64,000 bases of DNA from Fibrobacter sp. (GTDB lineage Bacteria; Fibrobacterota; Fibrobacteria; Fibrobacterales; Fibrobacteraceae), in the NCBI GenBank assembly GCA_024399015.1, contig JAKSIC010000001.1, positions 124,001 through 188,000 of the forward strand, written 5' to 3'. Positions 748 through 64,000 of the stretch are shown here, piece by piece; positions within the stretch are counted from its first letter, which is position 1; each line of letters starts with the position of its first letter. A model generated the notes under the pieces. The model saw nothing but the letters and a program-made list of their open reading frames with translations. It was not told where the DNA came from and ran no database searches. The position numbers and the translations under genes are program-made.

Positions 748-1749
748 TTACTGGATTTGGTCAACCGGGAAGAGAACGCTCATACCAGGGCGGAGATTTT
801 CAACTTTTTCCTTCGGACGGAGGCGAACTTCGAAAGACTTGAGATCGAAACCGCCACTTTCCTTGGAGCTGCGCCAGGTTGCGTAATCACCTACGGAAGC
901 AATGTAAGTCACTTCCATATCCACGTGCTTGTCCAATGCCGGAATGAACATGTTGAAAGTCTTGCCCTTGGAAACATTCTTCAGCATATCTTCACGGAGG
1001 TGGAAGACTGCCCAGGAATCATCAAGGTCAGTAATTGCGACAACGGGCATGCCGGAACCAACCACTTCGCCTTCTTCAACAAGCTTGACGGAGACTTCGC
1101 CTGCAATAGGAGCACGAATCTTGGTTTCTTCGAGGTAAGCATCCACTTCGGCATTAGCACCGCGAGCTTGCATCACGAGAGCTGCGGCAGCAGCCTTGTC
1201 TTCGGAACGAGCACCTGCGAGAGACTGATCGTACTGAGCGCGGGCAGCGTCTGCAGCGGATTGGGAAGCTCTCATCTGAGTTTCTGCTTCGTCGCGCTTC
1301 TGCAACGGGAGCACGCCTTCATTATAAAGTTTCTGTACACGGTCGTAGGTATTCTTTGCGAGGTTTGCAGCTTCCTGAGCACGGTCAGCCATAGCCTTCA
1401 AAGCAGTCACGTCTTCGGAGCGAGCGCCATTCTTAGCCTTGTTTGCCTGTGCGCGAGCGGCACCAAGAGCACCCTGGGCCTGAATCTTCTTTGCTTCAAT
1501 TTCCGGGCTGCTGATGACAGCAACGATCGCACCCTTGGTCACCATGTCGCCTTCATGGAAGAACAAACTTTCCACACGGCCAGGCACCTTACCGGCAACA
1601 AGAACGCGACGAGCTTCCATCTGCCCCTGCAGATAAGCCTCGCGAGGCTCCGTAGCAAACTTTTGCAGTGTAGTGATGCCAAGAACAATCAAGGCAATCA
1701 AAGAAAGAATGACTAAAATCTTGCCAATAACTTTAAGAACTTTAAGCAT
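748..1749 (-). CDS. HlyD/MFP-family periplasmic adaptor of an efflux pump
   Basis: 333 residues. An N-terminal signal-anchor (about residues 5-28) is followed by the first half of a barrel-sandwich domain (GKVPGRVESLFFHEGDMV), a long alanine-rich coiled-coil hairpin (about 85-200) and the returning half (IRAPIAGEVSVKLVEEGEVV). A C-terminal beta-barrel part ends in LRPGMSVLFPV. This is the classic membrane-fusion-protein layout that joins an inner-membrane transporter to a TolC-type channel. AGGAG lies 7 bases before the ATG. It sits between the channel gene (12-base gap) and the ABC-2 permease, so the three probably form one pump. Substrate not predictable. Confidence 0.9.
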   Translation of the reverse strand: MLKVLKVIGKILVILSLIALIVLGITTLQKFATEPREAYLQGQMEARRVLVAGKVPGRVESLFFHEGDMVTKGAIVAVISSPEIEAKKIQAQGALGAARAQANKAKNGARSEDVTALKAMADRAQEAANLAKNTYDRVQKLYNEGVLPLQKRDEAETQMRASQSAADAARAQYDQSLAGARSEDKAAAAALVMQARGANAEVDAYLEETKIRAPIAGEVSVKLVEEGEVVGSGMPVVAITDLDDSWAVFHLREDMLKNVSKGKTFNMFIPALDKHVDMEVTYIASVGDYATWRSSKESGGFDLKSFEVRLRPKEKVENLRPGMSVLFPVDQIQ

Positions 1750-1761
1750 AATGAACTCCTA

Positions 1762-3606
1762 TTAATTTTCAGATGCGGGGGTAGTAGATTCAACGGAAGT
1801 TTCTGCTGCGGGTACAGCTTCGACGGAAGCAGGCTCTGCGGGAGCGGAGGCGGCGGCCTCTGCGGGAGCAGTTTCTACCGCAGGAGCGGATTCAGCAGAA
1901 GCGTCTGCCGGCAGAGCGGCTGTGGCAACTGCATTTTCAGTTGCAGGCAGAAGCACCGGAGTGGTAGCGGGAGCAGTCACAGCGGCATCCTGCCTCACTT
2001 CTTCAACAGGCTGAACGGCACTCAGCATTGCACCAGCATTCACAACTTCGCCGCTAGCTTCCAGCAAGCCAAGCCATGCAATAACGGCGTCATAATGAGC
2101 TTTCAAGTCGCCCACCTGCAAACGAGCCAAAGACAACTCAGCATCAACAACTTCCAAGCCAGTAGCAAGACCTGCTTCGTAAGCCAAGGTCTGGCTACGA
2201 AGAGCTTCTTCTGCAAGTTCACGAGTCTTGTTCAAACTGGTCAAACGACTCATGGCATGTTCCTTTTCTCGCCAACGCTTTTCCACAAGCAGCTTGATGT
2301 TGTCCAAAGTGCTTTCTTCCATATTCAGAAGAGAACGATCCAAAGCCTTTGCGTTTGCAACCTTGGAACGAGTTTCACCACCCTTGAACAAATCCCACTG
2401 AAGCTTTGCGCCTACAGCCCATTCCGGTTCCAAAATGGTCAAGTCCCTCGTATAAAGTTCCTTATAAGCGAACAAGGCAACCATCGGATAATAATCACCT
2501 TGAGCAGCCTTCACTGCGTTCTGGCTACGCTTACGTTCAGTACGCAACTGCTGAAGACCCGGATGACGCTCAATAGCCAAGGACTTGAATTCTTCCATAG
2601 TCGGAGTCTGTTCCGGAGCAAGAACCGGAGTCACAGCAGTCAAGTTGGTATCGGTATGCAAAAGACTAGCCAAGGCCATACGAGCCAAGGACTGGTCACG
2701 GTAGGAATCTTCCAAAGCGTTCTGAGCTTCAGCCAAGGCAACTTCAGCGCGGAGGCGTTCAGCCTTACTAATCTGACCACCGGCTTCCAATTTCTTGGAA
2801 CGTTCCAAATGTTCTTCAAGATTCTTCTTGGTCGTTTCGCGCAATGCAGTCAATTCTTCGGAAAGGCGCAAAGTGAAATACTTTGTAGCCACATCCATCA
2901 AGACTGTATTTTGAGCCATTTCGAAAGCGGCCTTCTTGGCAGTCACATTTCCCTTGGCGGCATCATAGGCTGCAGTACGCTTGAAACCAGTGAACAAGGG
3001 CCAAACAGCGGTAAGACGAGCGTTGAAGAACACGTCGTCCTGAACCTTCATCTTGAAATCCTTGGACTTTTCAATTTCCTTGGAGGCGTTTTGACCATAC
3101 TGGTCTGCAACCAGCTGAGCCTTGTCATTCACATCCTTACTGGAAACGACTCCACTCCAAATGGTGGCGGCATTTTCGTCCAATGTTTCCTTAGCCTTAG
3201 ACTTGGCCACTTCCTCGGGCAAACCCATACCCATCATCTGGTTTACGGCATTTTCATACTGGCTTTGATAAACCTGACCATAAGCCTGGTTATAGACAGA
3301 CAGATAAGCCTTCGAATAGGCGGCTGCGCCGGCAATATCACTTAGGGGTGCCTGAAGGGAACTCAAATCAATCGTAATAGGATCATTAATCTTTGTAACA
3401 CTGGCAGACAGGCTCAACGACGGCATAAAACGGGACAAAGCCTCAGATTCCTCGCTTTCGGCAATTTCCACTTTGGCCCTTTCGGACTTAATCTGGGAAT
3501 TGCTGGCCTTGGCCATATCCAAGGCGTCTTGCAAGGTGATTGGTTTTGCGAACAAGGGTGTTGCCACCGTAATAACAGAAATCAGGGATGCACAATACTT
3601 TTTCAT
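1762..3606 (-). CDS. TolC-family outer-membrane efflux channel, enlarged
   Basis: 614 residues, against about 450 for the family. A cleavable signal peptide (MKKYCASLISVITVATPLFA) precedes ITLQDALDMAKASNSQIKSERAKVEIAESE, the usual start of the first OEP repeat. The second repeat begins near residue 340 (SLAIERHPGLQQLRTERKRSQNAVKAAQ, split here for length). Two oddities: an extra stretch of roughly 100 residues in the first repeat (about 95-200, Tyr/Gln/Ala-rich then charged), and an Ala/Pro/Glu/Thr-rich low-complexity tail over the last 80 residues. First gene of the efflux operon. A promoter with three in-phase repeats lies upstream. Confidence 0.88.
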   Translation of the reverse strand: MKKYCASLISVITVATPLFAKPITLQDALDMAKASNSQIKSERAKVEIAESEESEALSRFMPSLSLSASVTKINDPITIDLSSLQAPLSDIAGAAAYSKAYLSVYNQAYGQVYQSQYENAVNQMMGMGLPEEVAKSKAKETLDENAATIWSGVVSSKDVNDKAQLVADQYGQNASKEIEKSKDFKMKVQDDVFFNARLTAVWPLFTGFKRTAAYDAAKGNVTAKKAAFEMAQNTVLMDVATKYFTLRLSEELTALRETTKKNLEEHLERSKKLEAGGQISKAERLRAEVALAEAQNALEDSYRDQSLARMALASLLHTDTNLTAVTPVLAPEQTPTMEEFKSLAIERHPGLQQLRTERKRSQNAVKAAQGDYYPMVALFAYKELYTRDLTILEPEWAVGAKLQWDLFKGGETRSKVANAKALDRSLLNMEESTLDNIKLLVEKRWREKEHAMSRLTSLNKTRELAEEALRSQTLAYEAGLATGLEVVDAELSLARLQVGDLKAHYDAVIAWLGLLEASGEVVNAGAMLSAVQPVEEVRQDAAVTAPATTPVLLPATENAVATAALPADASAESAPAVETAPAEAAASAPAEPASVEAVPAAETSVESTTPASEN

Positions 3607-3829: not shown

Positions 3830-5470
3830 CTACTTACCCGGAGTCGGATTAGCAGCCTTCCATGCAGACGGGCCAAAACCCATGGTAGTCAGGTCTGCGC
3901 GCTGGAGACTGAATCCTGCGCCATCAGCATCGGTAAGACCGGCCCAAGCATCAGAATAGAGGGTTGCATCGTGCCAAGTATAGTAATACTTAGTTTCATT
4001 TGTTTCCGAGTCTTTGGTACTAGTGTACGGTTCCTTAATAGCGATTGTTTCACCGCGGTTGGAAAGTTTACCGTTATAAGAGAAAATCTGGACGGTTTCA
4101 GGAATATTATAGCTCTTGCGAACCAGTTCCGGACCCCAGCCAGCAATTGCAACATCTTCCAGAGTTGCAGGAATCAAGAGAGCCTTGGAATTTGCCAGAA
4201 GAACATCGGTTGCACCAAATTCAATGTTGACACCTTCAATCTTCCAACCCTTTTTCAAAGAGGAGTTGTACAAAGGAATATTAGCTGCGGTCGCATTTAC
4301 GATTTCCATGAATTCAAAAGGCAAAGCGCCCTTTTCGTCCGGATGGTAATGGATTTCGCTGATGTAGACAGAGCCCAGCTTAAGGGCAGAATTTGCAGCG
4401 CCCGGTGTAGCCATAGCCAAGGGACCTTGAGCTACAGAACCATCGGCAACATCAACAACACCGCTAACGCCCTTACCGGCCGGCAACCAGATACTGGATT
4501 CCTGACCTTCAGCCAAGCCATACAAATAGATTTCACCACCCTGGTCGGAAACTACGACTTCCTTATCGAAGTCACCACCTTCACCACCGTCCAAAACGAG
4601 GTAGCCACCGGCAGGCACGACTGCACCAGCATTAACCTTTATGGTATCCTTACGAAGCTTCACATTCAAAGTCCAGCCAGAAACATCCACCGGAACCGCA
4701 CCAGAGTTGTAGAGCTCGATCCAAGAACCTTCATAAGTTCCTGCGGCAGAGAATGAGGGCTTGACTTCGTTAATACGCACCGTGTTCACAACATCAATGC
4801 AAGCGTCTTCACCTACGCCGGGATTTCCACCAGGATTAGCGCTAGCACACCAGGAGACAGACTGGGCGGCAATACCACCGGTATAAACCAGGGAATGTCC
4901 CTTACCGTCGGCAAGGCTAGGCCAAGGAGGTTCGCTACTAAACGCGCAGGTCACGTCGCCCTCGCCACGGACCTTGACATTGACCACACCACCTTCATTG
5001 ACCATCTTGCCTGTCATATTTCCAAAAAGGCGGCCAGCGAATGTGGGATAGGCTTTCTTAAACAAAGCTTCATTGTTGGTCACTACCACATACTCACCCT
5101 TTTTCAAGGGTTCGGCAGGGAAAGTAAAGTCCACATCACCGCTCAGATGCAGGGTGAAGTTCTGCATGTTATCCATATCCATGCCACCAGCGATATAGAT
5201 TTCCACCCATTCCAGGGTATCACCCTTGGCGTTGTTATACATAATTTCGGAACAAGCCATCTGGGGTTCATCGGTGTTCTTCATGGAAGAACTGGAAACC
5301 AGAACGCCATTGCCCTTGGAGCTGGAGGAATTACCCCCGGACACCATACCGGAAGATAGAGTAGGATCATCCGGTCCTACGGGATTTTTCGGCTCGGGAT
5401 CCGAGCATGCAGACACCAAGGCCAGCATGGAGGCGCTAGCGCCAATAGTCAAAATCTTTTTGATATCCAT
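3830..5470 (-). CDS. Surface lipoprotein with lamin-tail (LTD) domains
   Basis: 546 residues from the preferred ATG at 5470; another ATG nine bases upstream directly abuts AAAGGA, while this one has AAAGGA at normal spacing. The lipobox LVSAC puts the lipidated Cys at 22, followed by a Ser/Gly/Asn-rich linker. At least three LTD-like beta-sandwich units follow: about 70-180 (CSEIMYNNAKGDTLEWVEIY), 225-340 (RINEVKPSF, GSWIELYNSGAVPVDVSGW) and 365-480 (VYISEIHYHP, FEFMEIVNAT). LTDs are known as adhesion or substrate-tethering modules on secreted bacterial proteins. It is the last gene of the DUF4956-HlyD-TolC-VTC operon, 24 bases after the VTC gene, and probably sits on the outer membrane. Exact role unknown. 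Confidence 0.85.
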   Translation of the reverse strand: MDIKKILTIGASASMLALVSACSDPEPKNPVGPDDPTLSSGMVSGGNSSSSKGNGVLVSSSSMKNTDEPQMACSEIMYNNAKGDTLEWVEIYIAGGMDMDNMQNFTLHLSGDVDFTFPAEPLKKGEYVVVTNNEALFKKAYPTFAGRLFGNMTGKMVNEGGVVNVKVRGEGDVTCAFSSEPPWPSLADGKGHSLVYTGGIAAQSVSWCASANPGGNPGVGEDACIDVVNTVRINEVKPSFSAAGTYEGSWIELYNSGAVPVDVSGWTLNVKLRKDTIKVNAGAVVPAGGYLVLDGGEGGDFDKEVVVSDQGGEIYLYGLAEGQESSIWLPAGKGVSGVVDVADGSVAQGPLAMATPGAANSALKLGSVYISEIHYHPDEKGALPFEFMEIVNATAANIPLYNSSLKKGWKIEGVNIEFGATDVLLANSKALLIPATLEDVAIAGWGPELVRKSYNIPETVQIFSYNGKLSNRGETIAIKEPYTSTKDSETNETKYYYTWHDATLYSDAWAGLTDADGAGFSLQRADLTTMGFGPSAWKAANPTPGK

Positions 5471-5503
5471 AAGAGACATCCTTTGCAGAGTATTTTCTCT
5501 ATA

Positions 5504-6334
5504 TTACAAATTTTCTTCCAACGTAGTTCCAAGCTTTGTCCAATAAGGGGTCTTGAAACGGCGGGGATTTTCATAAACACGCTGCCATTCAGCGGCGGCA
5601 TTGCCAAACTTGGAGAATCCGCCCTGCTTAAGGTTCAGGAATCGGATCAGATCGATCATCCAGTAGGGCACCTGGGAACAGGGACACTTCAGTTCCAAAA
5701 CAGCATCGCAACCCGGCAAGAAGAATCGGGGGATACCGGTGGAATGCATGTAGTGGGGATCGACAGTGTAATCAAAGCCATTTTCTTCGCGAAAACGCAT
5801 GCCAGTATCGATGGTCACGCGGGAATATTCTTCGCGGAGACCGAACCATGCGCGACGCTTATACTGTGTCAACAGACGGGGATGTGCACCATGCAATTCA
5901 GTCTTGTACAAGAAATCCTTAAGGTACTTACGATCCTTTTCGCCCTTGCACGGCCATTCGTCCGGTTTCATGTTCCAGACTTCACCAGGGTTGATGCCCT
6001 TGATGGTGGCGCGGCTCTTGTAGCAAATGCTCTTGATCTTACGCTTCACTTCAAAATGGAAGGTTCCATCCTGAGCAGGATGTTCACCGTAAGTACGGAT
6101 ACGCATGTTGAAACGATCCAGCAACTGACGTTTTTTCCAGCCAAGGAACGTCCACGTGGGGGTATCCAGATAGAGGTTGGTAATCCAGTAGAAACCACCC
6201 GGAGTAATTTTGGAGTAATAGTCTTCTTCGCAATACGGAGCAATGAAGGCGCCAATCTTGTCGGCCCATTCCACAGGAATGTGGTACTTCAACTCGAAGC
6301 GTTCGAGAAGACTAAATCCGCGGGCTTCAGCCAT
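5504..6334 (-). CDS. VTC-domain (polyphosphate polymerase-like) protein
   Basis: 276 residues covering one VTC domain of the triphosphate-tunnel superfamily; the yeast Vtc4 domain makes polyphosphate from ATP. The tunnel residues look intact: E14/K16 in FELKY, R78/R80 in MRIRTYG, E95/K97 in FEVKRK, K106/R108, R160/R161 in QYKRRAW, R172 and D176 in RVTID, E214/K216 in LELKC. There is no signal peptide or membrane segment, so it should be cytoplasmic. The start (GAGGTAATATG) overlaps the region of the TolC-like gene's stop codon, implying tight translational coupling with an export channel. That polyphosphate is the product is inference; another nucleotide-derived polymer or transfer reaction is possible. 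Confidence 0.85.
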   Translation of the reverse strand: MAEARGFSLLERFELKYHIPVEWADKIGAFIAPYCEEDYYSKITPGGFYWITNLYLDTPTWTFLGWKKRQLLDRFNMRIRTYGEHPAQDGTFHFEVKRKIKSICYKSRATIKGINPGEVWNMKPDEWPCKGEKDRKYLKDFLYKTELHGAHPRLLTQYKRRAWFGLREEYSRVTIDTGMRFREENGFDYTVDPHYMHSTGIPRFFLPGCDAVLELKCPCSQVPYWMIDLIRFLNLKQGGFSKFGNAAAEWQRVYENPRRFKTPYWTKLGTTLEENL

Positions 6335-6335
6335 A

Positions 6336-7715
6336 TTACCTCAAGCCCTTCTGCAGATGATTCTGCACACCTTCGGCACCGAGAACACCAGCGTATTCAA
6401 GCAATGCAAGGTAGCGGGTAAAGATATCGTTTTCCAACTTGATTGCTCTCAAGTCGCTTTCAAGAGCGCTTTCACGAGCGCGGAGCAAAAGCAGCGGATC
6501 GGAACCGGCGTTCTTAGCAAACTGTTCAAAGATGGAGCCGGCATTAACCTTTTCCACAAATTCCTTCTGAACCTTCCACTGTGCAATCAAGGCATTGATT
6601 TCATCAACCAACTTGGTAACCTTCTGAGAGACATCACGGAAGTCTTTCATATAGTCACCTTCAGCATCAAGTTCAGCAACCTGAGTCTTCAAGTCGGAAT
6701 CCTTATTGCTGTCAAAGAACGGAAGACGGAATGCAAGGTTTGCAAAGAACTTGTCGGAAGTCTTGCGGTTGTCAACGTCCGGAATCAGAACGCGGGCAGT
6801 AGCGGTACAACCAAGCTGGCTTACGCAACCAGTCTGCTTTTCAAACTCGCCCCTGTAGGCATCATAGGAGCCGGTACCATAAATGTCATAGGCATCCAAG
6901 TCCTTGTACTTTTCCATCAAGGATTCAATCTTCAAGGAATAGCCAATGCCGATATGGGAAATGTAGTCGCGGCTCTTGGAGGCATCCTGCTGGATCTTGG
7001 ACTTTTCAGACTTCATCTTGCCAGCAGCCATTGCAATAGCCGGGAAGGTTTCGTTAATTTCAAGACCGCCTTCCAACTGAGCAGCAACTTCGTCCATGGA
7101 AGGAATCCAGGTGGAGTCCAGTTCAACGCCGTCAAAATCCGGAACCCAAAGTTTGAGTTTCGCTTCGGCATTCAGTAAGGATGCGCTATCGGTCATCATT
7201 TCTGCGCGGAGGGAAGCTTCCTTTTCCAAAGAAGTCATCAAATCCTGGGGATTGAAAGTTGCAGAACCGGCCTTCATGTGGAGAACTTCGATGCGGTCGG
7301 AGTTGACCTGGTAAAGTTCCTTGTTCAACTTGGCAATACGCTGACGATTGATGTAGTGAATGGCGCGATCGTAGCGGTCATACAGAAGTTCTGCACGGTC
7401 TGCGATAAGGTGAGCCTTCTGGTAGGCAACCTGGGCTTCCCAGTGAGCCTTGTCTGCGGAGCCCTCACCAAAGCCCTTCGGCGTAATGCGGAGTTCAAAA
7501 TCATGCTGAGCGAAGCTGAAGCCATCGAGTTTGTAGCGAAGCTCCAACTTGTCCCAAAGTTTGGTATTCTGTCCGGTGGAGGTCATTTCTGCACGTTTCT
7601 GCGCAGCCTGGTAACGAGGGTCGTTATCCACGGACTGAATCAACTGTTCCCAGGTAAGGGGGCCAGCAAACGCAGCGGCAGACAATGCTAAGGTTACCAA
7701 TCCAAACTTTTTCAT
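6336..7715 (-). CDS. TolC-like outer-membrane channel protein of the VTC operon
   Basis: 459 residues. A signal peptide (MKKFGLVTLALSAAAFAG) is followed by LTWEQLIQSVDNDPRYQAAQ, the start of an OEP-type repeat. Long alpha-helical coiled-coil stretches rich in K, E and A follow, and the second half (FRLPFFDSNKDSDLKTQVAE) resembles the second OEP repeat. It is divergent from the larger TolC-like protein at 1762-3606. AGGAAG lies before the ATG. It sits between the HlyD-like adaptor (56-base gap) and the VTC gene (1-base gap), so it probably forms the outer-membrane exit of the system. Annotation as an outer-membrane efflux protein is reasonably safe; its cargo is unknown. Confidence 0.78.
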   Translation of the reverse strand: MKKFGLVTLALSAAAFAGPLTWEQLIQSVDNDPRYQAAQKRAEMTSTGQNTKLWDKLELRYKLDGFSFAQHDFELRITPKGFGEGSADKAHWEAQVAYQKAHLIADRAELLYDRYDRAIHYINRQRIAKLNKELYQVNSDRIEVLHMKAGSATFNPQDLMTSLEKEASLRAEMMTDSASLLNAEAKLKLWVPDFDGVELDSTWIPSMDEVAAQLEGGLEINETFPAIAMAAGKMKSEKSKIQQDASKSRDYISHIGIGYSLKIESLMEKYKDLDAYDIYGTGSYDAYRGEFEKQTGCVSQLGCTATARVLIPDVDNRKTSDKFFANLAFRLPFFDSNKDSDLKTQVAELDAEGDYMKDFRDVSQKVTKLVDEINALIAQWKVQKEFVEKVNAGSIFEQFAKNAGSDPLLLLRARESALESDLRAIKLENDIFTRYLALLEYAGVLGAEGVQNHLQKGLR

Positions 7716-7771: not shown

Positions 7772-8839
7772 TTATTCGGAGATAGTCACCATTTCACCCA
7801 ACAGGAACGGGTTTTCTTCAGGAATCTGAATGATGACTTCGCGACCATGAATAGGCATTTCCGGCATCTTCCACATACGCATGGGGAATTCAACAATACG
7901 GCTGGAGAGGCCAACGACCTTGCCCTTGATTGCCTTGCCGGTACCACCCAGAGTGCGAACCTTCACGGTTTCGCCAACGTCCATACGCTGGTACATACGT
8001 TCGTGAATGTAGCCACGAACGAGAGTCGGAGACTTATGGGTCAAGGTAACAACCGGAGCAAAGCTGGAGAGTTTTTCACCATCGCGAGCATTGACAGAAC
8101 CAACAACCCAGTCTTCCTTGGCTATCTGCACCAATTCTTCCTGCTGCTTCTGGAGTTCAGCCAATTCCTTCTTGAGGTTTTCGACTTCAGTCTTGCCAGC
8201 GCTCTTCTGCAAACGACCGCTGCTCTTGAGGAGCTTTATCTGTTCATTTGCATTGGCCTGGAGAACAGCGAGTTCGTTCTTCAAGCTCTTGATGCGCATT
8301 GCCATGGCGTCGTTGCCATCGCTCTTTGCATCAGAATTCTTAAGGCTCTTAAGCTTAGCAGCAATTTCCTTATTCTTCTGGTATTCGGTTTCCAGGTTGC
8401 GAATTTCAGACTTGAGGGCGAGACTGCGGGAAGCAAGATCGGCCTTGACCTCAGCAACTTTCTGGTCAATTTCAGCATTGGACAAGTCGCTGCGACCTTC
8501 GCTAGCGTCAAGTTCGCGGGTAAGCTCTGTAATACGAAGGGTAAGGTCCGGACGGTTCAATTCAACGATGGTATCACCAGCGTGAATGGACTGACCAGGC
8601 ATCACGTGAACCTTGACAACTTCAGTGGGGCTCGGCAAGCTGATAGTAGTTTCGGTAGCTTCGGCAATTCCCTGGAACATGGAGGCCTTGCCGGCGAACA
8701 TAATGCCAAGGACAATAACGATAAGGATGCTAAGGCACCAGGCGTAAATCAGCTTGTGTTTGTAAGCGTGAGCTACACCAGGATTGGTCTTGTGCTTATT
8801 CCAAAAAGTATCGAGAGCGTCTTCAAACTTGTTCATCAT
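7772..8839 (-). CDS. HlyD-like membrane-anchored adaptor of the VTC operon
   Basis: 355 residues. A short cytoplasmic N-terminus precedes one membrane segment (about 30-50, LIYAWCLSILIVIVLGIMFA). A split lipoyl/barrel-sandwich domain (VVKVHVMPGQSIHAGDTIVE near 75-95) encloses a coiled-coil hairpin (about 100-235). The C-terminal barrel contains VRGYIHERMYQRMDVGETVK. The family links inner-membrane components to TolC channels. Two adjacent ATGs exist; the second (8836) has the better GGGAG spacing. The gene lies 8 bases after the DUF4956 gene and before the TolC-like gene. No ABC, RND or MFS partner is encoded in the operon, so DUF4956 is the only candidate inner-membrane partner here. Confidence 0.82.
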   Translation of the reverse strand: MMNKFEDALDTFWNKHKTNPGVAHAYKHKLIYAWCLSILIVIVLGIMFAGKASMFQGIAEATETTISLPSPTEVVKVHVMPGQSIHAGDTIVELNRPDLTLRITELTRELDASEGRSDLSNAEIDQKVAEVKADLASRSLALKSEIRNLETEYQKNKEIAAKLKSLKNSDAKSDGNDAMAMRIKSLKNELAVLQANANEQIKLLKSSGRLQKSAGKTEVENLKKELAELQKQQEELVQIAKEDWVVGSVNARDGEKLSSFAPVVTLTHKSPTLVRGYIHERMYQRMDVGETVKVRTLGGTGKAIKGKVVGLSSRIVEFPMRMWKMPEMPIHGREVIIQIPEENPFLLGEMVTISE

Positions 8840-8847
8840 CTACTCCC

Positions 8848-9531
8848 TTACATTTCGGTGGTTGCATCTTGCATCATGAACTGAACGTCGGAGATGCCTT
8901 CAATTTCAGAAAGTTCTTTCAAGATTTCTGCAGCCGGCTTAGTTGCACGGAGACGAACCTGGTAGGCGCAATCCACACGAGCGCCACCATCCACCTCACG
9001 CATTGTGATTAGGATGTAGGTCTTTAGACTTTTTCGAAGGACATCTTCGATTTGCTGACGGGGAGCAGATTCGTTGGGAAGAGCGAAACGAAGCATGCCA
9101 TCAAAGAAATGCTTGGTACCGAGACCGGTACGGGAAATGAGGAAGGCAACAATGCAGAATGCAATGGTACCACCGAGAGCCGGGCCCCAAGCATAAACAC
9201 CGCAACCGATACCTGCGCCAAGGGAGGCGAAGATAAACATGATGTCGCGAGGATCCTTAAAGCTGGTACGGAAACGGACCACAGAAAGTGCGCCCATCAT
9301 ACCGAGGCCGCGGCCAACGTTATCACCGATAGCAGCCATCACCATGGCGGCGACCACAGAGCTCAACACGATGCCCTGCACAAAATTTCTGGAGTAAGAA
9401 AGACCAAGGAACGTCTTTTCGTAGGTCCAAGCAATGGTGGAAGAAAGGATGAAGGCCAAGATAAGGGTATAGGCCAGAGTGATGAGAGATGCGTTGGCAG
9501 TACCAGACTGTACCGCTAAAAGATCGAGCAT
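8848..9531 (-). CDS. DUF4956 integral membrane protein
   Basis: 227 residues. The N-terminal two thirds holds about four membrane segments (approximately 15-37, 47-68, 95-112, 113-133). A conserved polar stretch, GRGLGMMGALSVVRFRTSFKD, lies between them (given over residues 73-93) and is followed by PRDIMFIFASLGAG. The last third is soluble and ACT/ferredoxin-like in pattern (TYILITMREVDGGARVD). This matches DUF4956, a family I remember as frequently adjacent to VTC and CotH genes in bacterial genomes. GGAGA precedes the ATG. It is the first gene of the VTC operon, and its conserved charged loop could form a channel or sensor for the polymer. Molecular function is not established. Confidence 0.85.
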   Translation of the reverse strand: MLDLLAVQSGTANASLITLAYTLILAFILSSTIAWTYEKTFLGLSYSRNFVQGIVLSSVVAAMVMAAIGDNVGRGLGMMGALSVVRFRTSFKDPRDIMFIFASLGAGIGCGVYAWGPALGGTIAFCIVAFLISRTGLGTKHFFDGMLRFALPNESAPRQQIEDVLRKSLKTYILITMREVDGGARVDCAYQVRLRATKPAAEILKELSEIEGISDVQFMMQDATTEM

Positions 9532-42121: not shown

Positions 42122-42182
42122 TTTGCAAAATATAAAACCAACATCAACAAAATTAGAAAAAAGAAATTTCTATTTTGAAAAT

Positions 42183-43415
42183 ATGCAACATTTGTTGGTA
42201 ACTCTAGCCTTTTGTCTCCTTTGTTGTTCCTGCGTTTGGAACGATACGGACGAAGATTTAGACTACCTTGTTATGGACGACTCTGAATATCCTTATGCGG
42301 AAATTCCAAGGATTGTTATTGAAACCGAACATTTTCAGCAGATTCGTGATCGCGAAACACAAATTCCAGCCCGTTTGCAGATCTATGGAGAAAAAGGTCC
42401 CGAGAGCGGAATCCTTGATTTAACTGTTCGTGGTCGCGGCAATTCCAGCTTTACCGGGATGTCCAAATGGAGCATCAAACTTAAATTCAATAAAAAGCAA
42501 GAAATGCTTGGAATGCCAAAGGATAAGGAATGGGCACTCATTGCAAATTCTGCAGACAAAACATTGCTAAAGAACTTTATTACATACAAACTCGCTTGGT
42601 GGCTCGGTGACGAATACTCCCCTAGATCGGAGTTTGTGGAGCTCTATCTTAACAGAAAGTACATGGGCGTTTATCTGTTAACAGAAACTGTGAAAGTCAG
42701 CGAAGATCGAGTAAATATTCCCGACTCCGAAAACAGCTATCTTCTGGAACTGGGATCCACCCCCAAAGAGGGTGAAATCCACGTAATTACTAGGTCTGGA
42801 ACCAATTTTGCCATTAAGCATCCCAAGGATATCTCCGACTCTTCCAAGGAATTTCTAAGGAACAAATTGACCCATTGGGAATACTACCTTCACGACCAGA
42901 ATTTCAATGCCGACGAACCTGTAGACTATTGGCTTGACGTAGAAGATTACCTAAGGTATTACTGGATTCAGGAACTTTCCAAGAACATAGACGGAGCATT
43001 CCGCCGAAGCATTTTTATTACCTGGGCAAAAGGTGAAAAAATCAAGTTGGGACCCGTTTGGGATTTTGACATGGCCTACGGAAACTGGGAGGCCGACACA
43101 CTGCGAACTGTCACCGACTGGTACATAAAACCTTCTGGCTGGAACGAGCGTTTGTTAACGGATTCTGTCTTCTGGCAGCGAGCCGTTTCCTACTGGAAAG
43201 ACCATCACGACTTCATCGAAACCTTAAACGATTCCATCGATGTTTACGCCAAGGAACTGAGCCCTGCCACAAAGAACGAATTCAAGCGGTGGCCCGTATT
43301 GGAAAATACAGAGAACTGGACTTACAAGGAAGTCTACAAGACCTACGGCGAAGCCGTAGATTCCTTAAAGAGCTGGATTTCGCAGCGTATTAATTGGATT
43401 GACAAGAACCTGTAA
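42183..43415 (+). CDS. CotH-kinase family lipoprotein
   Basis: 410 residues from the ATG at 42183; an ATG 60 bases upstream would add a charged stretch before the signal peptide, so it is unlikely. The lipobox is LCCSC (Cys17). The CotH kinase domain covers about 65-405, with TVRGRGNSSF, KWSIKLKFNKK, MPKDKEWALIANSADKTLLKN (split at the Lys for length) and the metal-binding VWDFDMAYG. CotH enzymes are protein kinases that act outside the cytoplasm. Here it should sit in the periplasm or on the outer membrane. The 3' end overlaps a convergent glycosyltransferase gene by 26 bases. Substrate unknown. Confidence 0.9.
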   Translation: MQHLLVTLAFCLLCCSCVWNDTDEDLDYLVMDDSEYPYAEIPRIVIETEHFQQIRDRETQIPARLQIYGEKGPESGILDLTVRGRGNSSFTGMSKWSIKLKFNKKQEMLGMPKDKEWALIANSADKTLLKNFITYKLAWWLGDEYSPRSEFVELYLNRKYMGVYLLTETVKVSEDRVNIPDSENSYLLELGSTPKEGEIHVITRSGTNFAIKHPKDISDSSKEFLRNKLTHWEYYLHDQNFNADEPVDYWLDVEDYLRYYWIQELSKNIDGAFRRSIFITWAKGEKIKLGPVWDFDMAYGNWEADTLRTVTDWYIKPSGWNERLLTDSVFWQRAVSYWKDHHDFIETLNDSIDVYAKELSPATKNEFKRWPVLENTENWTYKEVYKTYGEAVDSLKSWISQRINWIDKNL

Positions 43416-57070: not shown

Positions 57071-58441
57071 CTACTCCGCTTTGCCTTTACCGATGCTAGT
57101 CACTTCAAAGCCAATCTTGCGAAGAGCGTCGGCATCCAGGATGTTACGTCCGTCAAAGACAAATGCAGGCTTTGCCATGGAGTTGTAGATACGCTTCCAA
57201 TCCATTTCAGCGAAGCACTTCCATTCGGTACAAACTACTACAGCATGGGCGCCTTCAGCAGCCTTGTAGGCATCTTCTTCGAACTGAACCTGATCCAACA
57301 CATCCTTCAGGTCGCGCTTGGCATCGGGAATTGCCTTGGGGTCGGTTACGACCGGCTGTGCATGTTCGGCCAACAAATCACGAACAACCAAGTTTGCCGG
57401 GCTTTCACGGGTGTCACCAGTATTGGCCTTGAAGGCAAAACCGAACACAGCGATCTTCTTGCCGGCAATGGTGTTGAACATGGTTTCAAGCATACGATCC
57501 ACCACGCGGTGGGTCTGCCATTCGTTGATCTTGACAACACTTTCCCAGTAGGCAGCCACTTCCGGAAGTCCATAGTAGCCACACAGGTACACCAGGTTCA
57601 AAATGTCCTTCTTGAAGCAGGAACCGCCGAAGCCGATAGAGGCCTTAAGGAACTTGCTACCAATACGGCGGTCCTTACCCATAACGAAAGCAACTTCGTC
57701 AACATCTGCACCGGTGCGTTCGCAAAGGGCGCTGATGGAGTTAATGGAGCTGATACGCTGAGCCAGGAAAGCATTTGCGGTAAGCTTTGTAAGTTCAGAA
57801 CTCCAGAGGTTGGTGGTCAAGATGCGATCACGGGGAACCCAGTGAGCATAAACATCGACCAACTTCTGGCAAGCAGCGAGACCGGATTCAGTCTGGTGGC
57901 TACCAATGAGCACGCGGTCCGGTTCAAAAAGATCGTTAATGGCAGTACCTTCTGCCAAGAATTCCGGATTAGAGAGAACCTCAAAATGAAGGCCCTTGTC
58001 ATTGGAATTCAGGATTCGTTCCATGGCGGCAGCGGTACGGACAGGCAGGGTGGACTTTTCCACAATGATCTTGCCTTCGTCAGCAATGTCCAGAATCTGG
58101 CGGGCAGTCTTTTCCCAGTACTGAAGGTCGGAAGCCTTGCCAGCCCCATGGCCAAATGTCTTGGTGGGAGTATTCACAGAAACGAAAATAATGTCAGCTT
58201 CCTTGATTGCTGCCGGAATATCTGTACTGAAGAACAGATTGCGGCCGCGTGCACGGTTCACCACATCATCCAGGCCCGGTTCAAAAATAGGGAGATTTTC
58301 GCTATTCCAGGCATCGATGCGGGACTGGTTAATATCAACAACAGTCACCTTAACATCAGGGCACTTATCGGCAATAACAGTCATGGTGGGGCCACCGACA
58401 TAACCCGCGCCAATGCAAACAATATTGGTTTTGAAACTCAT
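57071..58441 (-). CDS. ugd: UDP-glucose 6-dehydrogenase (eukaryotic-like form)
   Basis: 456 residues. The NAD fold is at the N-terminus (IVCIGAGYVGGPTMTVIADK), followed by VNTPTKTFGHGAGKASDLQY, characteristic of the animal/plant-like UGDH branch, and the catalytic Cys in GFGGSCFKKD near residue 273. It oxidises UDP-glucose to UDP-glucuronate, giving the glycan locus an acidic sugar donor. It is the first gene of the minus-strand arm. Shine-Dalgarno is weak. Assignment is strong; end use of UDP-glucuronate is inferred. Confidence 0.95.
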   Translation of the reverse strand: MSFKTNIVCIGAGYVGGPTMTVIADKCPDVKVTVVDINQSRIDAWNSENLPIFEPGLDDVVNRARGRNLFFSTDIPAAIKEADIIFVSVNTPTKTFGHGAGKASDLQYWEKTARQILDIADEGKIIVEKSTLPVRTAAAMERILNSNDKGLHFEVLSNPEFLAEGTAINDLFEPDRVLIGSHQTESGLAACQKLVDVYAHWVPRDRILTTNLWSSELTKLTANAFLAQRISSINSISALCERTGADVDEVAFVMGKDRRIGSKFLKASIGFGGSCFKKDILNLVYLCGYYGLPEVAAYWESVVKINEWQTHRVVDRMLETMFNTIAGKKIAVFGFAFKANTGDTRESPANLVVRDLLAEHAQPVVTDPKAIPDAKRDLKDVLDQVQFEEDAYKAAEGAHAVVVCTEWKCFAEMDWKRIYNSMAKPAFVFDGRNILDADALRKIGFEVTSIGKGKAE

Positions 58442-58484: not shown

Positions 58485-61328
58485 CTACTTGAAAACGGCT
58501 GTTAAAGACGGAATTTCCTCGGGATTTACCACTCGAATTTGATCTAGGACACCATCATCCCATCCCGCCCAAATTTTTCCAGCATCAGGGACTGCTGAAA
58601 CAACAACGGGTAGTCCTTTAAAGAAGTTCACCGAAATCGGGAATCTATCTATCGGCAGACCATGAACAAGAATAGAACCACCACCATTTACAGACAACGT
58701 AACAGAAGCTATTTCATCCAATTTAAAGAATTCCCTCATTTCCCGTACAATTACACCTGGGCGATTCTTGGCAAAAATCTTGATTGTTTCCAATTCATCA
58801 TTCATGTGAGAGCTGCTGTGGCTCCAGCGTTTCTGATCTCTAGATATTTCAGCAGAAATTGCAGACATCAACGTATTTATTCTTGCACTGACACGAGATG
58901 TTTCAAAATTCATAGATAACAAAGTCGTCATTCTGTTCACAAAGGCCAACTTGAAATTTTCATTTTCCAGCAACCTTCGCAGCAGCAAAGTAGAATTGGG
59001 TCCATTGGGCCAAGCATCCGCAGAGCCCTCAGCATTTGTAGCAAACTCAAAAATGTTATTCGAATATTCGCTATAAGTATTTCCAAAGCCGAAATCAGTA
59101 TCGTAGATAAACCATTTCCATAAAGTATTCTGCTTTGTATTACGCCATTTCTTCAAATTATTGCTAGGCCAGTCGCGATTGTTCACAAACATTTCCAATT
59201 GCACATAATTCATGAAGTTGTCAACATCAATTTGACTAGCAACTTTCGCATAGTTTTCTTCACTATCAAGATGATTGGCATCCAACCAATCCATTAATTG
59301 CTGATATTCCACAGAAGATCCATTTGAAGCAGAATTATCTGCCTTCAGCAAATCAATATCATCCGGCTCCATACCATAATGGGTTTCAAAATAGTATTCG
59401 GTTGCACGTTCGCGAATATTATGAATTCCATAATATTCACCATTGTAATACACGACAGAAGCGCGACCACGTTGGTAATCAACACCGAGGCCCTCACTAA
59501 TGGAACTTGCCAACATATCACGGATATAGTCATTGGTAAAATTGCTGCCGTTGTTTCGCAACACAAACACCTTAAACTTTTTCAACTCCGGAAAATCCGG
59601 GAAAAGTTGATATTTCAATCGTTTGTTACCATACTTTTCTCGGAAAGTAATAGCAACGGATTTTTTCCCATTTGCTCTACTGTAATTGCCAAAAATTTTA
59701 AATCCGGCATTTTCTGCAAAAGCAGGTTGAGCAGTTCCCTTTTCAATAAGTTCCACAAAAATGGGCAGTTCTTTGTCTTCCCAATAATTAGCGCCATAAT
59801 GAGGTTCCGCAGAAGACGCATTGGGACCATCCATATAAATTCCAGTATCAGGATCAAACAAAGATTTAGGATCACCAGTAAGAAATACAGCAGGCAAAGT
59901 CGGAACATTTTCAAATACGTAGGTTCTGTTCGTCACTTCACCAGGAATAGCTCCCGGCGCAAAACTTGCGCAGCGAACAACTTTGGTTGAAGAAACATTC
60001 AGTTGCGTCATCAACGGGCTCTGAGCCGAAGGTTCTGCGCCGCCCATTTCGCAACGAATATTTTGATCCTGCGGAAGAGTAACTACAAAGGCGGTTGAAT
60101 AAAATCCTGAGGGAGGAAATTCAGCCAACGAATCCAGGGATGGCGAGCGCATTCCATTCACAAAGTTCGAGGCCAGCGCATTGGGGCTTGGATCTGCATA
60201 CCCCCAGCCAACATTATCAGCAGCTGTAGACAAGCTATCTGCAAAGAATCCGTAAGACCAGCTTTTTCCCGCAGGAACATCCTTGTAATCTACGGATGCC
60301 ATAATGCCGCCAGCAGCATTCATAAGATAAAGGCTGCCAGGAGCATTCTTTATTTTGAAGGAAGCATGGGGTTCATGACCTCGATTGCGAGCAATGTAGG
60401 AGAAAGCCTTGAAAGTCACTTCTTTTCGTTCATTAGCTTCCGGACTGAATCGGGTGCCATAAATATTTTCAAGGTCTGGAAGGCTCTTTCCTTTCGGAAG
60501 CAAAAAACGATATACAGTAGAGGAGTCCCCCGTTCCCGTCAATACCGTTTCATAGCCTTTCCAATCGTCAAGTCCTGCCTGTACCAAGCGCAAGGAGATT
60601 TTGCGATCCTTGGTAATGTAGGCATTCAAAAGAACTTCATTGGAATTGGACAAGTCCACAACATCGGATTCAGATCCACTTTTAGCACCCACAAAATCAG
60701 AAATAGAAGTCCACCCTAGTTCTTTATTTTCACCAAACTGCATTGTGGCACCAAAACGGCGAATCCCATTTTCGGTAAAACAGAGATTCTTTTTCCCTGG
60801 TAAATTCTTTGTGGTACTTTCACCCGGAGGATCTTCATTCTGGGAATCAGTCCATGTCCAGCAACCATTGCCCGCAAGATTCACCGTGTCCGACGGAGCA
60901 ACGTAATCAGGATAATTCTTTTCAGAAAGATAGATGAGTAAAAAAGACAGAGGCGGAATAACAATCTTTCCCAATTTCCATTTTTGAGGTTCACTCAAAG
61001 AATTGGTCAAGTACATTCCCGTAAGATTTGCAGGTTCCGAACTCGTATTATAAAGTTCAACCCAGCCAGCATCTCCTCCTTCGTGATCTTCGTAATCCAG
61101 ATTTACAGGATCCACTTCAGTAAACATCACGGGACCACCCACAAAAGGATGCTTTAAGGTATCTACTTTTTCGTTATCTGTTTGGTTTTCTGAACCAGGA
61201 ACTACAACTTCCGATACGGATTGATCAATGACAGCATCACCACTGCAGGATACAAGAGAACATGTCAAAAACGCCGTGCAATAAAAAAGAACACGGCAAG
61301 GCATAACATTTCTCTTGAAGATTTTCAT
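58485..61328 (-). CDS. Lipoprotein fusing lamin-tail, beta-hexosaminidase-C-like and CotH kinase domains
   Basis: 947 residues. Lipobox SLVSC (Cys28). An LTD lies at about 68-180 (VMFTEVDPVNLDYEDHEGG, AGWVELYNTS). A CHB_HEX_C-like beta-sandwich precedes residue 490 (PPSGFYSTAFVVTLPQDQNI, NRTYVFENV). The CotH kinase domain covers about 495-800, with FKIFGNYSRANGKKSVAITF, RNNGSNFTNDYIRDM and the metal-binding WKWFIYDTDFGFG. The C-terminal 75 residues resemble an InlB-type repeat (VVVSAVPDAGKIWAGWDDG). It is probably a surface-tethered kinase. It physically joins LTD and CotH modules that occur singly elsewhere in the window. Confidence 0.88.
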   Translation of the reverse strand: MKIFKRNVMPCRVLFYCTAFLTCSLVSCSGDAVIDQSVSEVVVPGSENQTDNEKVDTLKHPFVGGPVMFTEVDPVNLDYEDHEGGDAGWVELYNTSSEPANLTGMYLTNSLSEPQKWKLGKIVIPPLSFLLIYLSEKNYPDYVAPSDTVNLAGNGCWTWTDSQNEDPPGESTTKNLPGKKNLCFTENGIRRFGATMQFGENKELGWTSISDFVGAKSGSESDVVDLSNSNEVLLNAYITKDRKISLRLVQAGLDDWKGYETVLTGTGDSSTVYRFLLPKGKSLPDLENIYGTRFSPEANERKEVTFKAFSYIARNRGHEPHASFKIKNAPGSLYLMNAAGGIMASVDYKDVPAGKSWSYGFFADSLSTAADNVGWGYADPSPNALASNFVNGMRSPSLDSLAEFPPSGFYSTAFVVTLPQDQNIRCEMGGAEPSAQSPLMTQLNVSSTKVVRCASFAPGAIPGEVTNRTYVFENVPTLPAVFLTGDPKSLFDPDTGIYMDGPNASSAEPHYGANYWEDKELPIFVELIEKGTAQPAFAENAGFKIFGNYSRANGKKSVAITFREKYGNKRLKYQLFPDFPELKKFKVFVLRNNGSNFTNDYIRDMLASSISEGLGVDYQRGRASVVYYNGEYYGIHNIRERATEYYFETHYGMEPDDIDLLKADNSASNGSSVEYQQLMDWLDANHLDSEENYAKVASQIDVDNFMNYVQLEMFVNNRDWPSNNLKKWRNTKQNTLWKWFIYDTDFGFGNTYSEYSNNIFEFATNAEGSADAWPNGPNSTLLLRRLLENENFKLAFVNRMTTLLSMNFETSRVSARINTLMSAISAEISRDQKRWSHSSSHMNDELETIKIFAKNRPGVIVREMREFFKLDEIASVTLSVNGGGSILVHGLPIDRFPISVNFFKGLPVVVSAVPDAGKIWAGWDDGVLDQIRVVNPEEIPSLTAVFK

Positions 61329-61383: not shown

Positions 61384-62250
61384 CTAGAAATTGTGATTTT
61401 TGTCTCGTTTTCTCTTGAAAGTATTGCGGTTCGGGCGGCGCACCACAAAAAGACAGGCGCCAATCAGCACCAAGGTCACAGAGACAACCTTTTCCAGCGG
61501 GAAGGCTTCCGAGAAAACTATGGCACCCGCAATAGTCGGCACGGCAGCACCAACAGCGGCGCTAAACGGAATAATGAACAGGGCGCGGCCTCTAGAGAAG
61601 GAAATCTGGGAATAAATGAAAGCAATTCCATAGGTGGCCACATAAGCCAAGGTTCTGAAATCCAAAAGCAAGGAACCAATGGACGAAAGGGAAATATTGT
61701 CCAAATCAAAATCCATGGCCAGGCTCTTGTAAAACGCGGCAGAAATACCAAAGCCAACACCCATAATCAGGGAGTCCACCATTTCGCGGTCCTTGCAAAG
61801 CAAGTGGGCAAGCAAAGCAATTCCACAGACCACGCCAGCGTAAATCCAAAGCATGCTAATATCTTGAACGCTGGTCGTTTCACCAAGATTTTCCACAGAG
61901 CAAAGCAAGCCTGCGACAACAAAGCAAATAGCGATAACAATGCGACGGGTCAGAACCTCTTTAAGAATGACGAAGCCCATCAACGCCGTAAGCACCGGAT
62001 TCAAAACCATCATGGGCTGAACCTGGCTCAAGTCATACCGAGCCATGGCAATGTAGTAGCCGCCAGTTGCAAACACGGAGCAAGCAATTCCAAGCCACCA
62101 AAAACCGTTGGTGAAAACGCCCTTCCAGAACTGCCAGGGGTTGGACACACCACCAGTTCTTTTGCCTACGTTGGCGACTCCGGATTTTTCCAGAATGTTG
62201 CCACAGGCAAAAAGGAAGGCGGGACCTATTGTCAAAAGTAAGAAGAGCAC
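61384..62250 (-). CDS. DMT-superfamily (EamA-like) transporter
   Basis: 288 residues, about ten membrane segments in two repeated halves. The EamA-type signs are MVLNPVLTALMGFVILKEVL near 82-101 (first repeat end) and FSAAVGAAVPTIAGAIVFSEAF near 230-250 (second repeat end). The start is a GTG. The basic tail (RRPNRNTFKRKRDKNHNF) is cytoplasmic. Members export metabolites or move lipid-linked sugars. It follows the transglycosylase gene by 36 bases on the same strand. Substrate unknown. Confidence 0.85.
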   Translation of the reverse strand: MLFLLLTIGPAFLFACGNILEKSGVANVGKRTGGVSNPWQFWKGVFTNGFWWLGIACSVFATGGYYIAMARYDLSQVQPMMVLNPVLTALMGFVILKEVLTRRIVIAICFVVAGLLCSVENLGETTSVQDISMLWIYAGVVCGIALLAHLLCKDREMVDSLIMGVGFGISAAFYKSLAMDFDLDNISLSSIGSLLLDFRTLAYVATYGIAFIYSQISFSRGRALFIIPFSAAVGAAVPTIAGAIVFSEAFPLEKVVSVTLVLIGACLFVVRRPNRNTFKRKRDKNHNF

Positions 62251-62286: not shown

Positions 62287-64000
62287 TTACAGGCTGTCGT
62301 AAATTTCCTGATAGATCCAGTAGTTACCCATAACACGCTTCACGTAGTCGCGGGTTTCCCAGTAGCTGATTTCCTCGGCGCGGATATCCCAGGGAAGGCC
62401 CTGGCCTGCGGCCTGCCAGCGCTTGGTGGGCTTGGGACCAGCATTGTAGTTACCGAGAACGTACATGTAGTCGTCCTTATATTCAGCCTTCAAATCGATG
62501 AGGTAGCGGACGCCCAGACGGATATTCATGTAGGCATTGTAAAGTTGCTTCGGGTCAAAGTTTTCCAGGTTTTCAAGCTTTGCGAGCATCTTGCCGGTAG
62601 CAGGCATGATCTGCAGAAGACCGCAGGCACCCACCGGGGAAGCGATTTCAAAGTTGAAGATGGACTCCTGACGCATCACGCTGTACACGAAGAAGGGGTC
62701 GATCTTTTCGCCGGAGTGGTACTTCACCTGATCCTTGTACGGAATCGGGTACAGATAATGCAGAACATCGATAGGTGGCGTCATGAGGCGGCGGCGATCA
62801 ATGTTGTTCTGGAACTGACGAGCCAAGCGATAGCCTGCAGCAGTTTCACCCATCTCGTAGAAGAGCTGGCCGTATTCGTACAAGAAATCCAAGCGCTTTG
62901 CATTCTTCTTGCGTGCTTCATCATAAAGGTCAAAAGCCTGGTCACTGAAGCCGTAGAGGAACAAAGTCTTGATTCGGTTGTAACGTTCCGGACTGTAGGT
63001 AGGATCCGGCTTGCCCAACTTCTGGGAATCGCGAATCCAAGCCAAGGTCTGTTCCGGAGTCATCTGCACGCCATGAGCATAGGGCACATCGGCAGCGGCC
63101 ATCAAGTTATTTTCCACAAGTTTCATTCGGCTGCGATGAGCGTAATAGGCCAGCGGGAAATCGCGGATACAGTCAAGGTAGGCTTCACGTGCCAAGGAGT
63201 CCTTGCCAAGTTTCATGTAGGCGTCACCCAGGAACATGCGGGCGCCACTACCGCTCCACAGGAACGGTTCCTTGGAAGCATCGATAAAGGCAGCAACAGC
63301 CTCTTCCCACTTTTCTTGTTTGAAGAGCACAAAGCCTACGCGGAACTTGGCCCACTGGCGCTTCACATTGTTCTTGAAACGCTTATGGGAAAGTTGCTTA
63401 AAGCAAACCAGGGCGCTATCGTACTTCTGGTTCTGTTCGTATTCAATACCGCGAACCCAGAGGTTGTTTGCATTTTCCTTGCTGTACTTGCTCACGTCAG
63501 TGAGCTGAGCGTCAAGCTTCTTAATGAGTTTTGCATTTCGTGTAGAGTTGTTGCGAAGCAAGCGCAAGGTGGACTGAATCCAGACCGGGCGAACTTCCAC
63601 GGAATCCAGCAAGAAGCGGAACTGGGCAATGGATTCGTCATCACGCTTCAAACCGCGGAGAGCCACGGCGCGCTTTTCCCACAGGTTGATGCGGGTTTCC
63701 ATATCCATAGTGCTGAGAGGAAGCTTGCTCTGAATGGAATCTTCCGGAAGAGCTACTGCACTTTGCGGGTTCTTTCGCACCTGTTCAGCATCAAGAATAA
63801 AGATGGAATCTAAAAGGGTCAAGCAGCTCGCAGCCTCATCCTTAGCGCAAGCCATTTTCGCATAGGCAATCTTCTCCGCCAACGACTCGGGCGCACCCTG
63901 CACCTTACGGAGCTTACGGATGCTGGCAAACGCAGAATCCTTATAGAAGGAAGAACTGGTCAGCAATTGCATATAGATGCGTTTTGCTTCCTTCAACTGC
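62287..64000 (-). CDS. Slt-type soluble lytic transglycosylase, partial (N-terminus beyond window)
   Basis: At least 571 residues; the reading frame stays open to the right edge, so the true start lies outside. The N-terminal part (to about 370) is alpha-helical and TPR-like (FKQLSHKRFKNNVKRQWAKF, ARMFLGDAYMKLGKDSLARE). The C-terminal Slt domain has the catalytic Glu in MRQESIFNFE, GACGLLQIMPATGK and VLGNYNAGPKPTKRW. Slt70-like enzymes cut peptidoglycan glycan strands in the periplasm, leaving anhydro-muramyl ends. It is upstream of the DMT transporter on the same strand. Confidence 0.9.
   Translation of the reverse strand, partial: QLKEAKRIYMQLLTSSSFYKDSAFASIRKLRKVQGAPESLAEKIAYAKMACAKDEAASCLTLLDSIFILDAEQVRKNPQSAVALPEDSIQSKLPLSTMDMETRINLWEKRAVALRGLKRDDESIAQFRFLLDSVEVRPVWIQSTLRLLRNNSTRNAKLIKKLDAQLTDVSKYSKENANNLWVRGIEYEQNQKYDSALVCFKQLSHKRFKNNVKRQWAKFRVGFVLFKQEKWEEAVAAFIDASKEPFLWSGSGARMFLGDAYMKLGKDSLAREAYLDCIRDFPLAYYAHRSRMKLVENNLMAAADVPYAHGVQMTPEQTLAWIRDSQKLGKPDPTYSPERYNRIKTLFLYGFSDQAFDLYDEARKKNAKRLDFLYEYGQLFYEMGETAAGYRLARQFQNNIDRRRLMTPPIDVLHYLYPIPYKDQVKYHSGEKIDPFFVYSVMRQESIFNFEIASPVGACGLLQIMPATGKMLAKLENLENFDPKQLYNAYMNIRLGVRYLIDLKAEYKDDYMYVLGNYNAGPKPTKRWQAAGQGLPWDIRAEEISYWETRDYVKRVMGNYWIYQEIYDSL

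Follow-up and report, generated by a model that had tools for sequence, protein, structure and literature searches.

Many bacteria secrete CotH kinases, and we know of no phosphate supply for them outside the cell. The window analysed here, a stretch of 64,000 nucleotides from a contig (JAKSIC010000001.1) of the rumen-type bacterium Fibrobacter sp., encodes a lipoprotein in which a lamin tail domain (LTD) is joined to a CotH domain, as well as an operon for a VTC domain protein and a DUF4956 membrane protein. A first, sequence-only reading had taken this fusion as a hint that LTD lipoproteins, CotH kinases and the VTC conduit serve one surface process, perhaps the phosphorylation of outer-membrane proteins or the display of phosphate on them, which raises the question of whether the LTD-CotH protein is tied to the VTC operon. 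We argue, with evenly balanced confidence, that VTC and DUF4956 form an export module serving extracytoplasmic CotH kinases, and that the LTD-CotH of the window is a dispersed relative of the module kinase, not a contiguous member. A conserved partnership that joins CotH to a polyphosphate polymerase and to a membrane conduit, and that extends beyond Pel loci, makes the extracellular phosphate supply directly testable, and the module hints at an unexplored route of phosphate supply outside the cell.

The LTD-CotH lipoprotein and the VTC operon of the window

The LTD-CotH gene, its domains, its neighbours and a second CotH gene are as follows:
58485..61328 (-): LTD-CotH lipoprotein gene, 947 aa (Pfam CotH and LTD, AlphaFold model)
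61242..61328 (-): LTD-CotH residues 1-29, signal peptide and lipobox-like LVSC, read from the translation
60885..61136 (-): LTD-CotH residues 65-148, lamin tail domain (Pfam, 33.2 bits; weak fold matches)
58755..59699 (-): LTD-CotH residues 544-858, CotH kinase domain (Pfam) with the Asp pair D719 and D743
57071..58441 (-): UDP-glucose/GDP-mannose dehydrogenase, adjoins LTD-CotH, kept in 24/30 genus loci
61384..62250 (-): EamA-like transporter, adjoins LTD-CotH, kept in 27/30 genus loci
62287..63999 (-): SLT transglycosylase with TPRs, near LTD-CotH, kept in 25/30 genus loci
42123..43415 (+): second CotH lipoprotein, start probably at 42183 (Pfam CotH, E 2.8e-35)

The proposed union of an LTD with a CotH kinase in one lipoprotein is borne out by Pfam and AlphaFold, clearly for the CotH domain and more weakly for the LTD. 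The CotH match (PF08757) reaches E 5.5e-40 and 138.3 bits against a curated cut-off of 23.8, and the LTD match (PF00932; E 7.5e-8) scores 33.2 bits, the curated cut-off being slightly higher at 34.3; the LTD of the homologue L042 scores 36.8 bits. The AlphaFold model has a mean pLDDT of 70.5, mostly above 85 in the CotH part and mostly poor in residues 140-318. In the PDB it is closest to B. cereus CotH 5jda/5jd9 (TMt 0.80/0.79), and lamin tails match it weakly (prob 0.60-0.87, E 0.2-0.6). Single-sequence PDB searches with LTD-CotH, the VTC protein and the second CotH gave no matches, and a profile from 14 CotH domains matched a single PDB sequence, CotH 5jd9/5jda (2.6e-33). D719 and D743 are the two invariant aspartates of the CotH-domain alignment and align to the aspartate pair of 5jd9, which lies 23 residues apart, the same spacing as D228 and D251 of B. 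subtilis CotH. Mutants in D228 and D251 are described as inactive in the available part of PMC7821199. By alignment and spacing, via 5jd9, both catalytic aspartates appear to be kept in the CotH domain of LTD-CotH.

LTD-CotH shares its fold and catalytic aspartate pair with the spore-coat kinase CotH of B. subtilis and B. cereus (5jd9/5jda), but is a predicted exported lipoprotein with an LTD, outside any spore. Because of the lipobox, we infer that it is anchored in the outer membrane; that it is an anchored, CotH-type predicted kinase is a claim to which we give, jointly with the reading of the whole module, an even chance. The fusion is not new, since the same LTD-CotH architecture is in print for C. 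thermocellum Cthe_0239 (LTD, LTD, Fn3, CotH; PMC6083626). Unlike the LTD-CotH family described here, Cthe_0239 is given, in the available part of that paper, as a cellulosomal protein without a link to VTC. The second CotH lipoprotein was also read correctly from the sequence, as its open reading frame has an internal ATG at 42183 that is followed by a lipobox.

The VTC operon occupies positions 9531-748 of the reverse strand and is listed here in gene order:
8848..9531 (-): DUF4956 membrane protein (PF16316, 3.9e-12)
7772..8839 (-): HlyD-like periplasmic adaptor (PF13437, 2e-9)
6336..7715 (-): TolC-like outer-membrane channel, 459 aa (AlphaFold and Foldseek)
5504..6334 (-): VTC domain protein, predicted polyphosphate polymerase (PF09359, 9.3e-30)
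3830..5479 (-): lipoprotein with three LTD stretches and the lipobox LVSAC (PF00932, 4.2e-26)
1762..3606 (-): OEP/TolC outer-membrane efflux protein (PF02321, 8e-48)
748..1749 (-): second HlyD-like adaptor (PF16576, 1.2e-15)

The operon was thought to end with the LTD lipoprotein; here, the OEP and HlyD genes come after it, and the lipoprotein gene is last in many outgroup loci. In Fibrobacter, this second OEP-HlyD pair (748-3606) extends the VTC operon; most outgroup loci lack it. The second CotH gene lies about 33 kb and LTD-CotH about 49 kb from the operon; therefore, VTC, DUF4956 and CotH are not contiguous in the window, and the window alone shows no link between LTD-CotH and VTC.

The VTC family profile matches Vtc4 best (5e-18), with Vtc2 and Vtc3 lower, and the VTC domain at 5504-6334 retains the conserved tunnel residues, whose roles we take from Vtc4. 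In yeast, VTC couples polyphosphate synthesis to passage through a membrane partner. The window VTC protein has the catalytic domain in common with the eukaryotic VTC complex (Vtc4), but it has no SPX domain among its Pfam matches, and its candidate partner is DUF4956. The 459-aa protein gave no match in Pfam or NCBIfam and no sequence-profile match, and an NCBIfam search on 10 proteins returned none at all. Its AlphaFold model (pLDDT 80.3) has TolC/OprM/CusC-type structures at all Foldseek ranks from 1 to 44 (TMq 0.64 at rank 1), so that the product of 6336-7715, as modelled, has a TolC fold. In Saprospiraceae, relatives of this protein occur together with DUF4956 and HlyD, frequently in loci that lack VTC.

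The operon contains an adaptor and an outer-membrane channel, as do the HlyD-TolC tripartite exporters, but no ABC, RND or MFS pump, whose place would be taken by DUF4956. Accordingly, DUF4956 together with VTC is the candidate engine, an unusual one for a TolC-type exporter. We take the DUF4956 protein of the window to resemble MgtC plus an ACT domain. Its homologue in S. intermedius has been likened to the same combination (PMC12345266, available part), and a DUF4956 profile gave no matches in the PDB. The protein encoded at 8848-9531 also carries a glycine-rich GLGxxGAL..RFRT motif.

CotH, VTC and DUF4956 in the Fibrobacterota

The genome of the window carries all three families, with nine CotH, one VTC, one DUF4956 and, in addition, six LTD matches. 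Among 150 Fibrobacterota genomes, CotH is present in 125, VTC in 121 and DUF4956 in 119. CotH and VTC occur together in 119 genomes and are both missing from 23, whereas six have CotH only and two have VTC only (p 1.8e-19); the two families thus agree in 142/150 genomes, with 8 discordant, and the absence of co-occurrence that would have counted against the proposed link was not observed. The corresponding counts (both, CotH only, VTC only, neither) are 54/4/2/23 outside the genus and 28/3/2/23 outside the family; counted by genus under a majority rule (n=40), they are 26/2/1/11 (p 3.8e-7), compared to 24/8/3/5 (p 0.09) for the GH8 control. Over genomes, the control is also associated outside the genus (p 0.002), with odds ratios of 14 (all) and 7 (outside the genus) against 228 and 155 for CotH; the statistics of both associations ignore kinship. 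With that limit, chance or shared ancestry alone was rejected as the source of the CotH-VTC co-occurrence because the association of the GH8 control is much weaker. In genus g14, CotH is found only in two genomes, and these are the ones carrying the VTC-DUF4956-CotH trio. LTD was rejected as evidence for linkage: it is present in 148/150 genomes, and its co-occurrence therefore tells nothing.

Gene neighbourhoods were compared in 60 loci around VTC or DUF4956 from outside the genus (987 kb in total) and in 11 further loci from the genus Fibrobacter. The non-genus loci hold 44 CotH ORFs, compared to 1.2 expected from the CotH density in these genomes; the ORFs are spread over 29/60 loci, which is a lower bound because contig ends truncate many of the outgroup loci. 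The type A layout, [CotH]-DUF4956-HlyD-TolC-like-VTC-LTD, is found in 29/60 loci, nine of them with CotH. The other 31 have no TolC-like gene, and 20 of these have CotH, mostly in the order VTC-DUF4956-spacer-CotH. The spacer gene matches Pfam Porin_O_P ('phosphate-selective porin O and P') in 15/16 tested cases, seven of them over the cut-off, with matches that always cover part of the profile. In L055, L057, L060, L065, L073, L075, L076 and others, a Porin_O_P-like barrel gene lies between DUF4956 and CotH, and a Cthe_2159 gene precedes VTC; some operon CotHs (L055, L057) carry CBM_6. In the genus Fibrobacter, CotH is near the VTC operon in 0/11 sampled loci. The proposed neighbourhood of CotH with VTC and DUF4956 thus holds well beyond chance outside the genus, but fails within it.

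The LTD-CotH protein has matches in 111 of the 150 genomes. In G107, G092 and G072, which represent three other (sister) genera of the family, the protein matches best a gene that adjoins the VTC operon (37, 37 and 43% identity, respectively), Pfam confirms both LTD and CotH in these homologues, and in G092 the VTC-adjacent homologue is the sole CotH of the genome. G094 has a query-related LTD gene beside DUF4956 and VTC that is cut by a contig end. Genera closer to Fibrobacter have their best match away from the VTC operon. The tree of CotH domains (n=119) places LTD-CotH in an 18-row clade (support 99) together with these VTC-adjacent homologues and five paralogues from its own genome; six of the nine own CotHs are thus in one expanded clade, and the remaining three group with type-B CotHs. 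The tree took in VTC-adjacent CotHs, the own CotHs and 8/30 genus LTD-CotH loci, and left out CotH domains below 220 residues, dispersed CotHs of other genera, and L133, L134, L172 and L189, scan loci from Fibrobacterota that repeat phylum loci; owing to these omissions, its grouping with VTC-adjacent genes partly reflects the choice of sequences. The best-match search in the 150 genomes is therefore the stronger evidence for the tie to VTC-adjacent genes, and within the genus Fibrobacter the link consists of co-occurrence and descent only.

The trio in other phyla and its relation to Pel loci

A scan of genome contigs with a DUF4956 alignment yielded 79 loci, taken from the best 80 of 374 confirmed stretches, and the following counts apply to this set. 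VTC is found in 59/79 loci, CotH in 58/79 and both, hence the complete trio, in 52/79. The loci contain 63 CotH ORFs, 54 of which lie within 1 kb of DUF4956, compared to 1.4 expected from the density in 28 scan genomes, where about 111 Mb hold 124 matches. By record title, trio loci of this best 80 of 374 come from Spirochaetota, Krumholzibacteria, Calditrichota, Kiritimatiellae, Verrucomicrobia, Aminicenantes, Planctomycetota, Poribacteria and Fibrobacterota, and further from Desulfovibrionaceae, Desulfobacterales, Omnitrophota, Lachnospiraceae, Bdellovibrionia, Chloroflexi and Delongbacteria; most of their genomes are metagenome bins, and a few, such as Nitratidesulfovibrio oxamicus and Desulfovibrio sp. 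A2, are strain genomes.

LTD/CotH fusions occur in 23/79 of these loci from the best 80 of 374, with the LTD either before or after the CotH domain. Loci and fusions were counted with LTD and CotH HMMs built from Pfam-located seeds; Pfam recovered both domains in 10/10 of the scan fusions to which it was applied (10/23), with the LTD under the cut-off in one, and verified all five Fibrobacterota fusion loci. The fusions are spread over several clades of the tree, which suggests that the fusion of LTD with CotH in a VTC context probably arose more than once. As a link between the families, the fusion therefore keeps part of the weight that the sequence-only reading gave it: fusions lie inside VTC loci of several phyla and of the sister genera, but LTD itself carries no co-occurrence signal.

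The trio is known from Gram-positive bacteria, where Pel genes are flanked by cotH, a polyphosphate polymerase, DUF4956 and DUF4832 (PMC7112168, available part). CotH, the VTC-type polymerase and DUF4956 are contiguous both there and in SIR_1592-1594 of S. intermedius (PMC12345266), and VTC and CotH genes are given in one C. perfringens locus in the available parts of PMC2879425 and PMC11677781. According to the portion of PMC12345266 at hand, this three-gene synteny is not found outside the Pel locus. The trio loci described here are at variance with that statement: among 44 genomes with the complete or a partial module, PelG was found in two, and in both it is remote from the CotH matches, either on a different contig or at a distance of about 1 Mb; it gave no match in the genome of the window. 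A dependence of the module on Pel was rejected on these counts of PelG. In the literature covered, which includes few subscription papers, no description of the module in diderms was identified. In contrast to the Pel accessory group, the module here occurs in diderms, together with HlyD and a TolC-like channel or a Porin_O_P-like barrel, and with LTD lipoproteins and LTD-CotH fusions. What is new is therefore a known trio outside Pel, with predicted outer-membrane passage and fused LTD-CotH kinases.

Possible readings: export module, polysaccharide decoration or expanded family

Our reading of VTC and DUF4956 as an export module builds on gene content, co-occurrence, adjacency, domain fusions, the intact catalytic aspartate pair and the TolC fold. 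At the inner membrane, VTC would use ATP to synthesize polyphosphate or a related phosphoanhydride, and DUF4956 would couple this synthesis to inner-membrane passage. In diderms, the outward path may lead through HlyD and the TolC-like channel, as here, or through the Porin_O_P-like barrel of other Fibrobacterota. Extracytoplasmic CotH kinases would phosphorylate surface proteins or glycans, with the LTD of LTD-CotH as a putative binding or scaffolding domain. The VTC-DUF4956-CotH module would be the home of the LTD-CotH family, to which the dispersed LTD-CotH may still be functionally tied through the Fibrobacter operon.

The export reading is favoured by the co-occurrence and adjacency of CotH and VTC, the VTC-adjacent homologues, the fusions, the profiles, the TolC-like component, the Porin_O_P matches and the Pel and aggregation effects in S. 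intermedius. There, deletion of the DUF4956 homologue raised Pel and deletion of the CotH homologue lowered it, and either deletion reduced aggregation in one medium to less than half (PMC12345266, available part). The reading is weakened by the 0/11 genus loci with CotH and the other conserved block around LTD-CotH, by the six genomes with CotH but without VTC and the two with the reverse, and by the DUF4956-HlyD-TolC-like loci of the scan, 19/25 of which have no VTC match nearby (best 80 of 374; nearly all Saprospiraceae/Bacteroidota). In addition, the S. intermedius polymerase-homologue mutant still aggregated, with no change reported in the available part of PMC12345266. It is tempting to go one step further and to regard VTC and DUF4956 as a synthesis-driven exporter whose polyphosphate, delivered in diderms via the HlyD/TolC-like or porin-like outer-membrane path, is the donor for CotH outside, with the LTD holding kinase and conduit together. 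If true, this would overcome the absence of extracellular ATP; we consider it unlikely, and the published polymerase knockout without a reported phenotype speaks against it.

Alternatively, the module might regulate or decorate an extracellular polysaccharide. CotH would then phosphorylate the glycan itself, proteins of the cell surface or those that synthesize the polysaccharide, VTC and DUF4956 would sense or buffer phosphate, and the LTD-CotH of Fibrobacter would serve the neighbouring polysaccharide cluster. This explanation draws on the place of the trio in Gram-positive Pel loci (PMC7112168) and the influence of two of its genes on Pel and aggregation (PMC12345266), as well as on the surroundings of LTD-CotH, which include the UDP-sugar dehydrogenase in 24/30 Fibrobacter loci and, in the window, glycosyltransferases and Wzy-like and flippase-like genes. 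The CBM_6 domains on the operon CotHs L055 and L057 and the Cthe_2159 carbohydrate-binding genes upstream of VTC in 8/8 tested type-B loci point in the same direction. However, neither of the two PelG genes among the 44 genomes is near a CotH match, and no polysaccharide system was found common to module-bearing genomes; we hold this explanation to be doubtful.

The LTD-CotH of Fibrobacter could also belong, as an ordinary member, to a surface-protein family that has expanded and have no present tie to VTC, the linkage elsewhere being ancestral only; nine CotHs against one VTC in the own genome, six of them in one expanded clade, the missing CotH-VTC adjacency in the genus (0/11) and the conserved alternative neighbourhood of LTD-CotH over 30 genus loci (EamA, SLT, UDP-sugar dehydrogenase) argue for it, but CotH and VTC still match in presence and absence across the phylum, and in g14 CotH is confined to the two trio-bearing genomes. 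We consider this explanation improbable.

Single loci of the scan deviate from the common arrangements. In a Rhodospirillaceae bin (L187, 9154-12807), a long CotH gene comes after DUF4956, with no VTC match nearby, and in Nitratidesulfovibrio oxamicus (L158, 1623-7391) a tandem DUF4956-CotH pair follows a single VTC gene.
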